From positions 104,001 through 168,000 of the forward strand of contig NZ_KB849284.1 in NCBI RefSeq assembly GCF_000368145.1: a stretch of 64,000 bases of DNA, in the 5' to 3' direction. Shown here piece by piece: positions 10,365 through 59,641 of the stretch (position 1 is the first letter of the stretch; each line of letters begins with the position of its first letter). Position numbers and translations under genes: made by a program. The notes under the pieces are model-generated. The model was not told the DNA's origin, made no database searches, and saw nothing but the letters and a program-made list of their open reading frames with translations. Origin of the DNA: Acinetobacter guillouiae CIP 63.46. Lineage in GTDB: Bacteria > Pseudomonadota > Gammaproteobacteria > Pseudomonadales > Moraxellaceae.

Positions 10365-10430
10365 ATCTTATTCCTACAGAATTTTTCTATTTTCAATAAA
10401 GCTGATTTTCAATATTTTAGTGTAGTCTCG

Positions 10431-10565
10431 GGGCTGTTGACAATTCGTCTATGTTTGCGACGACGAGTATTTTTTAGGTGATACAAGGCACGAGATACGA
10501 AATTTAGTCATTCTAAATGAGTAGTTCGTAACGATGTAGCACCAAAAAATACTCTAGTCCTCAGC
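10431..10565. repeat. Dispersed MITE-like repeat, copy 1 (incomplete)
   Basis: It begins GGGCTGTTGACAATTCGTC and contains an inner inverted pair (GAGTATTTTTTAGGTG and CACCAAAAAATACTC) around a core with ATTTAGTCATTCTAAATGA. The first 100 bases match, in reverse orientation, the right half of the repeat at 34610-34889. No terminal GACAGACCC-like end is seen on the right, so this copy looks truncated. The remaining 270 bases to nadC carry no gene I can support and presumably include the nadC promoter. Confidence 0.75.
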
Positions 10566-34609: not shown

Positions 34610-34889
34610 GGGTCTGCTGACATTTCATAAATGGTTTGCGTTGTAGGTTAAAATTGAGCAGGCAAGGCATGAAACGAAGAGAATAGCGAGACTATTTTCG
34701 AGTTTCATAACACAGGCTGAGATAATTTTAGCCACAACCCTTCGGGACTAGTGTGCTTTTTGTCGCTACGTCGTTACCTTGCGAAACGATGTTTCTCATT
34801 ATTTAGAATGACTAAATTTCGTATTTCGCGCCTAGTATCGCCTAAAAATCACACGTAGTCGCAAACTTAGACGAATTGTTAGCAGACCC
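34610..34889. repeat. MITE-like repeat of 280 bp with terminal inverted repeats
   Basis: The ends are GGGTCTGCTGACA on the left and TGTTAGCAGACCC on the right, an inverted pair with one mismatch. There is no coding capacity. The right half (34780-34889) is the reverse complement of the repeat at 10431, sharing the core TTTAGAATGACTAAATTTCG. The left half has its own inverted arms (TTGTAGGTTAAAATT and AATTTTAGCCACAA). No clear target-site duplication is seen. Confidence 0.75.
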
Positions 34890-37328: not shown

Positions 37329-37399
37329 AATCACATTGTACGCTTTAGCTTACATCACTTGCATGCATTGACGGCTAGGGAAGTTGAAGCAAATCCCCT

Positions 37400-37541
37400 A
37401 TTCTATAGTCATAGGGAACAGGAAGTTTCCCAGACATAAAACAATAATAATCGGTCTGTACATCAGGAAGTGAGGTAGAACAGGAGTTTACCTAGCGAAC
37501 CAATACGAAAAAGCCCCGTCAGGATGATGGGGCTTTTTTTA
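37400..37541 (+). ncRNA. Candidate structured small RNA, copy A (left of the T6SS)
   Basis: The 142-base segment opens ATTCTATAGTCATAGGGAA and contains a hairpin GGGAA-TTTCCC and a terminator with a 10-bp stem AAAAAGCCCC / GGGGCTTTTT around GTCAGGATGAT. It matches the copy at 59495-59641: the first 45 bases differ at about two sites, the middle diverges, and the end is conserved. The stem carries a compensated base change between the two copies. It resembles C4-antisense-like sRNAs reported in Acinetobacter, from memory. There is no coding frame. Confidence 0.75.
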
Positions 37542-37554
37542 TAACTTGGACTTT

Positions 37555-37821
37555 TTAATTTTGCCCAACTGTTAATGACTGATCACCAATACATTTACAT
37601 CCGCAAGATAAAGGTGAATTATGCTGAGCAGCGGGCTTCCCCATCACCAACATATGATTATCACCTGCAACAATGCTGGCGACACATTTATGCTTGGGAC
37701 AGGTCGCCTTATCCCCTACACACGCAATCGCTTTACCATCAATCAGAAAAGAAGACTGAGCAGAAATAATTTTTCCACCACCTGTCGTGGGTGACCCTAA
37801 CGTGATATATGGAAGTGCCAT
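37555..37821 (-). CDS. PAAR-domain spike tip protein of the T6SS
   Basis: An 88-residue single-domain PAAR protein that caps the VgrG spike. It shows the PAAR start (LPYITLGSPTTGGGKII), the turn FLIDGKAIACVGDKATCP and the Cys/His residues near the end (AAQHNSPLSCGCKCIGD) that bind the zinc. There is no C-terminal effector extension, so effectors are not fused. It is the last gene of the leftward T6SS block, 38 bases after an OmpA-like gene. Confidence 0.9.
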   Translation of the reverse strand: MALPYITLGSPTTGGGKIISAQSSFLIDGKAIACVGDKATCPKHKCVASIVAGDNHMLVMGKPAAQHNSPLSCGCKCIGDQSLTVGQN

Positions 37822-59416: not shown

Positions 59417-59494
59417 TAGCCATGTTGTCTGTGTAGGAAAATGCTTACAGCAATCACAGCGATTGTCATCTATACGATCAAAGCACAGTCTTAT

Positions 59495-59641
59495 ATTCTA
59501 TAGTTATAGGGAACAGGAAGTTTCCCAGACATAAAACAACAATAAAGCGTCTGAGCATCAGGAACGTGAGATTCGACAGGAGTCAGATCTAACACACCAA
59601 TACGAAGAAAACCCCATCAGGATGATGGGGTTTTCTTTTTA
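59495..59641 (+). ncRNA. Candidate structured small RNA, copy B (right of the T6SS)
   Basis: A direct copy of the element at 37400-37541. The first part (ATTCTATAGTTATAGGGAA to CAGACATAAAACAA) is almost the same; the middle diverges; the end CACCAATACGAA and the hairpin AAAACCCC / GGGGTTTT around ATCAGGATGAT are conserved. The stem's outer pair is A-T here and G-C in copy A. It starts 79 bases after tagX and has a T-rich tail, so it may also end the tagX message. Confidence 0.75.

Follow-up and report, generated by a model that had tools for sequence, protein, structure and literature searches.

A probable multicopy small RNA family of Acinetobacter chromosomes and plasmids with the features of GacA-activated CsrA-decoy RNAs

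The DNA analysed here (the window) is a 64-kb stretch of the Acinetobacter guillouiae CIP 63.46 genome, and it holds two copies, A (37399-37541) and B (59494-59640), of an element whose shared 71-nt core is 90% identical between them; this is the sole direct-repeat family of at least 40 nt reported in the window. Copy A is flanked by the gene of an NADPH-dependent FMN reductase (PF03358) and a convergent PAAR gene (PF05488), and no listed open reading frame of at least 60 aa overlaps 37411-37541 on either strand. Copy B is located 540 bp from a 5S gene and beside a gene that we take to be ankyrin-like. A further copy in the same genome (C3:522290-522422) also lies near a 5S rRNA gene, at 0.6 kb compared with about 0.5 kb for copy B. 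The window additionally contains an inverted repeat pair of 89 nt (10430-10518 and 34801-34889), 87% complementary and 24 kb apart. The predicted features of the two copies are collected in Table 1.

Table 1 Predicted features of copies A and B (window coordinates; C5 coordinates refer to the contig).
Feature	Position	Strand	Basis or detail
Putative GacA-type activator site, copy A, TGTACG-N6-CTTACA	37337..37354	+	zero-mismatch match, C5:141337-141354
-10-like TATTCT, copy A	37399..37404	+	sequence; presumed
Predicted RNA, copy A	37410..37541	+	predicted start ~37411; terminator as 3' end
Hairpin 1, loop AGGAA, copy A	37414..37430	+	CAGGA at 37419-37423; fold and loop-anchored counts
Inter-hairpin CAGGA, copy A	37464..37468	+	unpaired in 37-copy consensus
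Hairpin 2, AGGA loop, copy A	37473..37493	+	CAGGA at 37481-37485; folds, alignment
Intrinsic terminator, copy A, loop with CAGGATG (37520-37526)	37507..37541	+	sequence, folds, alignment
Putative GacA-type activator site, copy B, TGTAGG-N6-CTTACA	59432..59449	+	C5:163432-163449
-10-like TATTCT, copy B	59494..59499	+	sequence; presumed
Predicted RNA, copy B, anatomy as in A	59505..59640	+	CAGGA at 59514, 59559, 59577, 59618

The original prediction, made from the letters of the window, was of a small RNA present in more than one copy, structured and terminated, whose stem changes compensate each other; the folds, covariation among 37 and 84 copies and a genus-wide distribution support it. Both copies end in a hairpin followed by a T run, and the terminator stems read GCCCC/GGGGC in A and ACCCC/GGGGT in B, with pairing kept and with a loop, AGGATGAT, that is fixed in A and B, all as had been claimed. 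The hairpin GGGAA..TTTCCC had been called constant; this is true of A and B, but copies in relatives differ in it, and its pairing is GGGAAC-AGGAA-GTTTCC. Single-sequence folding gave z-scores of -5.09 for A, -5.90 for B and -5.50 for a plasmid homologue, and in each case none of 200 shuffles folded as well.

Homologues were collected with the DNA query 37380-37545, which leaves out the upstream palindrome described below. Matches were obtained in 86 of 144 related genomes, comprising our own, 82 of the 88 other members of the genus and three genomes of other genera, the latter at E 1.5e-4 to 7.8e-4. For the alignment we retained 37 of 47 rows, dropping six repeats (L040, L045, two of L046 and two of L047) and four partial secondary matches to the terminator region (the second rows of L002, L003, L025 and L028). 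A covariance model (R1) built from these 37 copies found the element in 144 of 149 Acinetobacter genomes, with 1-14 hits each under strict filters, and in 126 of 299 genomes of a family-wide draw, 123 of them in the genus and three in other genera (E 3.4e-4 to 9.5e-4). These three model hits in other genera are marginal and may be due to chance. Copy A (C5:141410-141539, corresponding to 37410-37539) scores 143.6 bits (E 2.5e-23) and copy B 136.1 bits (E 6.4e-22), both being among the model's own 37 sequences.

A scan of the genome for further copies had also been suggested, and there are four in all by BLAST and six by the model. Four of the model hits have the palindrome (A, B, C3:522290 and C8:170); C12:48377 (E 1.4e-6) has it with one mismatch and lacks the CAGGA of hairpin 2, and the sixth, C4:212051 (E 2.6e-4), is without it. 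Seven weaker hits in the same genome (E 0.1 to 1) are taken as chance. The spacing of six copies in one A. baumannii record was compared by eye with the sRNA positions of AB5075 (Table 1 of PMC5320573), and no convincing match was found.

The covariation seen between A and B persists when more copies are aligned, an alignment without it having been named beforehand as grounds for rejection. RNAalifold predicts 23 pairs for the 37 copies, and 11 of these 23 show two-sided changes; the outer terminator pair is A-U in 22 copies, G-C in 12, C-G in 2 and A-G (unpaired) in 1. Because MAFFT places one hairpin-1 base wrongly, we recounted from the loops outward in 84 distinct copies, and since these copies were picked for having the palindrome and the loop, only the stems are a free test in this count. 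The hairpin-1 stems are paired in 435 of 504 cells, where 2000 shuffles gave 411 on average (sd 3.4) and never more than 423, while the loop always reads AGGA plus one base and the stems around it change in step. At the second terminator pair (n=64), A-T, T-A and G-C occur 41, 13 and 10 times.

These compensatory changes, with the loops fixed, argue against the view that the element is a non-functional dispersed repeat, such as a miniature mobile element with a chance terminator. That view is consistent with the presence of several copies per genome and of copies on plasmids by recombination-like sites. The spacing to the upstream palindrome is fixed, however, and the neighbouring genes are conserved as well: in eight other genomes, too, loci with the element have the FMN reductase gene on its upstream side, with identity down to 63%, and the presumed ankyrin neighbour of copy B recurs in loci of eight other genomes. 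The shared reductase gene indicates that locus A is old, and the kept neighbours at A and B together point to vertical descent. We consider a non-functional repeat very improbable.

The loop motif and layout had been likened to C4 antisense RNAs, and this assignment did not hold. C4 RNAs (RF01695) and the Group 1 sRNAs of A. baumannii, a large multicopy C4-like group recognised through the Rfam C4 motif as described in PMC5320573, are also short, structured and multicopy in Acinetobacter, and our own genome contains four C4 antisense RNAs over the Rfam cut-off (C6:196113, C4:2293410, C4:2080844 and C4:1777550), which would make a phage-derived C4-like antisense RNA conceivable at this locus. 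The C4 model nevertheless has no match in the window at its gathering threshold or in 37330-37600 at E<=10, and this negative result had power, as the same model finds the four C4 RNAs elsewhere in the genome. The element differs from C4 and Group 1 RNAs both in fold and in sequence. A phage origin was likewise rejected: the matches in the phage collection are four records, all named Acinetobacter phage MD-2021a, and the one that was opened holds fabB and acnA and therefore looks like a bacterial contig. The CAKLQF/CAKLQH records of that name in the collection are apparently mislabelled. We give the C4 reading almost no credence, and the loop motif TCAGGATGAT is better explained as a CsrA-type GGA loop than as a C4 feature.

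CAGGA in hairpin loops is the binding signature of CsrA/RsmA. Each copy of 131-135 nt contains this word four times, in the hairpin-1 loop, in the stretch between the hairpins, in the hairpin-2 loop and, as CAGGATG, in the terminator loop, so that three of the four sit in hairpin loops according to the folds and the alignment. The hairpin-2 loop comprises 7 nt in the minimum-energy fold of copy A and AGGA in the centroid of A and in copy B. The inter-hairpin CAGGA is unpaired in the consensus of the 37 copies, and its GG falls in a 2-bp helix in the single folds of A and B. Shuffled sequences contain on average 0.33 (A) and 0.57 (B) CAGGA, and four were reached in 0 of 2000 and 2 of 2000 shuffles, respectively; elsewhere in the window, both strands included, a stretch of 131 nt holds two at most. 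For GGA by itself there is no enrichment, with five seen against means of 3.9 (A) and 4.4 (B), a number reached by 623 and 925 of 2000 shuffles. It is thus the context and placement of CAGGA that are unusual, and not the plain count of GGA.

Upstream of both copies lies an 18-bp palindrome that, as we read it, resembles the activator site of GacA, whose consensus is TGTAAG-N6-CTTACA. The promoter of copy A shows no good -35 on inspection of the sequence, as expected for an activated promoter. The palindrome is present in all 37 aligned homologues, which are the best-matching loci rather than a random sample, and as the DNA queries left it out it constitutes an independent, non-circular test. 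Five of its 12 bases are invariant over the 37 copies. The distance from its end to the AGGA motif of hairpin 1, scanned by script from +60, is 64, 65 and 66 nt in 23, 11 and 3 copies. In our own genome the form TGTNNGN6CTTACA occurs without mismatch at 12 places; four of these precede the four BLAST copies, the zero-mismatch palindrome of the C8 copy reading on the opposite strand, and a further two stand ahead of other terminated RNAs that contain GGA. If one mismatch is tolerated, the count of the palindrome in this genome (98 and 120) does not exceed that of a reversed control (112 and 122), so that the strict form alone is informative. The palindrome also accompanies 6 of 6 model hits, two of them weak (87 and 78 bits), in an A. 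baumannii record of 3.97 Mb.

A palindrome of this type controls CsrA decoys, and its presence speaks against another explanation, namely that the element is a base-pairing (antisense-type) small RNA family whose GGA loops serve as mRNA seeds with Hfq. A. baumannii does have multicopy sRNA groups with conserved loops, as reported in PMC5320573, and the A-rich stretch AAAACAAnAATAAT between the hairpins of our element is conserved, as such an RNA might require. The four occurrences of the same CAGGA word, however, differ in their structural surroundings, and GGA is retained in the loops although the stems change, which is the mark of a protein site rather than of one seed; moreover, GGA resembles the ribosome site instead of complementing it. 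We therefore hold a base-pairing RNA to be unlikely. The base-pairing RNA AbsR28 (PMC11796373) lies between other genes, and no link to the element was found.

We then considered the protein partners that a CsrA decoy under GacA control would need. The genome has one match to csrA (91.8 bits), the product of which we take to resemble enterobacterial CsrA in its N-terminal part. A gacA-type regulator with a receiver and a LuxR-type domain is encoded at G000:C3:223819-224448 and scores 267.9 bits against the NCBI UvrY/GacA model. A gacA-type best hit is found in 148 of 149 genus genomes, at E 8.5e-82 to 6.1e-78, the exception being G170. None of the hits in the 149 genomes reaches NCBI's curated 280 bits, the best scoring 274.3; orthology is drawn from the gap between 261-274 bits for these hits and at most 128 bits for the next paralogues listed.

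Co-loss of the RNA and gacA was looked for in the 149 genus genomes and was not found. A gacA-type gene is present in each of the five genomes in which the model found nothing, and G170, where no strong gacA match was obtained, yields five model hits, of which four keep 11-12 of the 12 palindrome bases. Decay of the palindrome was thus not found in four of the five hits of G170, and the fifth (E 0.0016) is without a palindrome. The loss of gacA in G170 may be recent, or the assembly may be incomplete.

Taken together, these findings make it very probable that the element encodes a small RNA which GacS/GacA would switch on and which would soak up CsrA. We are confident, if short of certain, that each copy is a GacA-activated CsrA-decoy RNA gene of the Csr/Rsm type, like RsmX/Y/Z or CsrB. 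We infer CsrA binding, transcription, GacA dependence and the direction of the effect from sequence. Phosphorylated GacA would bind the palindrome, whose centre lies some 65 bp before the predicted start, and turn on a promoter with a weak -35. The resulting RNA of about 130 nt would fold so as to present three CAGGA motifs in hairpin loops, the last of these being the terminator loop, and the fourth between hairpins; CsrA dimers would be captured by these motifs and withheld from the mRNAs that CsrA controls. With several copies at different loci the doses would add up and the responses perhaps differ, and plasmids would bring further copies. Counting against a decoy are the absence of a known Csr/Rsm Rfam match, the GGA count at shuffle level, the weak pairing of one CAGGA and the lack of strict coupling between the RNA and gacA, as well as gacA scores below the curated cut-off, a palindrome that is not enriched once a mismatch is allowed, the missing CAGGA sites of the C12 copy and of some plasmid copies, and the model hit at C4:212051 that has no palindrome.

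Well-known systems of other bacteria provide a frame for this proposal. The RsmX, RsmY and RsmZ genes of Pseudomonas have a GacA-type palindrome upstream, and the CsrB and CsrC RNAs of enterobacteria, about 360 nt long with about 18 repeats of CAGGA-type loops, act as CsrA decoys under two-component control. Our element is far shorter than CsrB/CsrC, at about 131 nt with four CAGGA. It is similar to RsmX/Y/Z in size (about 110-140 nt), in its GGA hairpin loops, in its intrinsic terminator and in having duplicated copies; rsmX-2 of P. brassicacearum, for instance, is described as a 110-nt duplicate of rsmX-1 (PMC7911923), and 9 of 10 predicted RsmA-regulating RNAs of P. syringae are given as 136-140 nt (PMC5568370). 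It differs from RsmX/Y/Z in being a sequence family of its own, without an Rfam match at E<=10, with 1-14 model hits per genome and with copies on plasmids. None of the known Csr/Rsm families of Rfam (CsrB, CsrC, RsmX, RsmY, RsmZ) was found at gathering threshold in the window, and a search of the element at E<=10, which gave 18 weak matches, returned none of them either.

Within the genus, RsmA/CsrA-regulating RNAs of 119 and 139 nt have been predicted for Acinetobacter ADP1 (PMC5568370), where an earlier prediction (Kulkarni 2006) is also cited; following these predictions, a figure published in 2025 includes a CsrB-like RNA of A. baylyi (PMC12442408). These RNAs share genus and predicted function with our element; they are known as predictions, and could be members of this family or of the second one described below. 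Our literature search, which lay outside most subscription papers, returned no experimental CsrA-decoy RNA from Acinetobacter and no plasmid-borne one.

The genome contains other candidates for such RNAs. A second, unrelated GGA-rich RNA lies at C3:57849-58109 on the minus strand (L144:1850-2110) behind a perfect GacA-type palindrome, TGTAAGCAATTACTTACA, and ends in a terminator with CAGGATG in its loop; 87 of 99 genus genomes have a match to it, nearly always a single one, and it could be the CsrB-like RNA predicted for ADP1. A third candidate starts at C8:178678 on the plus strand (L145, approximately 1679-1920), where a terminated RNA follows the palindrome TGTACGAAATTGCTTACA and carries AGGA in hairpins or close to them; its fold z is only -2.2.

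The presence of the element on plasmids was examined in PLSDB. With copy A as the query, 225 of 72,556 records match, 224 of them from Acinetobacter; with a plasmid copy as the query the number rises to 414 of 72,556 (392 Acinetobacter, 16 Klebsiella, 3 Raoultella and 3 others), of which 236 cover at least 80% of the query, the weakest listed rows representing little more than the terminator. One of the records matched by copy A, the A. baumannii replicon NZ_CP064203.1, is filed as a plasmid in PLSDB, apparently by mislabelling, but measures 3.97 Mb and is presumably a chromosome. We examined 19 plasmid records, chosen by hand, together with this 3.97-Mb record. In 18 of the 19, the palindrome retains 10-12 of its 12 bases and CAGGA follows it at 64 or 65 nt; in the remaining one, a plasmid of K. 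pneumoniae, nothing but the terminator survives. Among the plasmid copies (n=18), two have an inverted terminator with no GGA in the loop and two are without the hairpin-2 CAGGA, which speaks against a uniform function. In L125 and L134 the terminator loop has ATCCTG in place of CAGGAT, a change that looks like an inversion of the terminator palindrome and that removes one GGA site.

All 18 plasmid copies that were measured (17 Acinetobacter loci; L136 and the L134 copy are left out of this count) have, 203-241 bp upstream of the palindrome and in one orientation throughout, a site that we matched to a pdif (XerC/D) consensus; the plasmid copies are interrelated, so that these are not 18 independent events. 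A downstream pdif-like site was not found in 6 of the 18, mostly where only 1.5 kb of flank was covered. In two plasmids, L127 and L129, the RNA lies between a pair of pdif-like sites in opposite orientation, with no annotated gene beside it; it is the sole annotated or recognised content there, which suggests that the RNA may itself be the selected cargo. The C12 copy of our own genome has no pdif-like site within 3 mismatches. Of 103 copy-places in other loci, a number in which overlapping loci are counted repeatedly, nine have such a site within 1.2 kb, and in five of these nine rows, representing three places, it lies about 134-137 bp upstream in the plasmid orientation. A gene of a toxin-antitoxin pair comes first among the annotated genes downstream in 11 of these 19 plasmid records.

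Many of the loci L066-L070 and L123-L135 also show, in the interval from the pdif-like site to the RNA and some 20-40 bp ahead of the palindrome, inverted pairs (TTATCCcCA..TGtGGATAA, for instance) that in our view resemble DnaA boxes. Outside Acinetobacter, a 5.6-kb plasmid of K. grimontii (L134) carries a near-complete copy with a 12/12 palindrome beside a catalase gene, and a K. pneumoniae plasmid (L136) carries a terminator-only remnant, also beside a catalase gene. Plasmids seem to have taken the element out of the genus.

Carriage on plasmids beside XerC/D-type sites is apparently new. A parallel is offered by RsmQ, a plasmid-encoded protein of the CsrA family (PMC9928087), with which a plasmid likewise interferes with the Gac-Rsm circuit of its host. 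RsmQ, however, is an RNA-binding protein, whereas our element is a putative plasmid-borne decoy RNA with a host-type control site. We propose tentatively, at slightly under an even chance, that Acinetobacter plasmids carry CsrA-decoy RNA genes with a host-type GacA site as cargo of pdif modules, and that the added doses answer the host's sensor and tilt its post-transcriptional control, possibly towards maintenance or transfer of the plasmid.

Both ends of the proposed circuit have been studied in A. baumannii. GacS/GacA is functional there and is reported to control metabolism, transfer of the plasmid pAB3 and virulence; it is needed for efficient pAB3 transfer and for growth on TCA-cycle intermediates, effects explained by direct binding of GacA to promoters (PMC10746170). 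In the text of that paper CsrA is absent and sRNA is mentioned once. The csrA gene is called essential on rich medium in A. baumannii (PMC12802169). If our interpretation is correct, the RNA family, whose exact loci are given here, would link GacS/GacA sensing with global control by CsrA in Acinetobacter, and plasmids would act on host control in a new manner, through extra doses of a host-type decoy RNA and not through a protein regulator.
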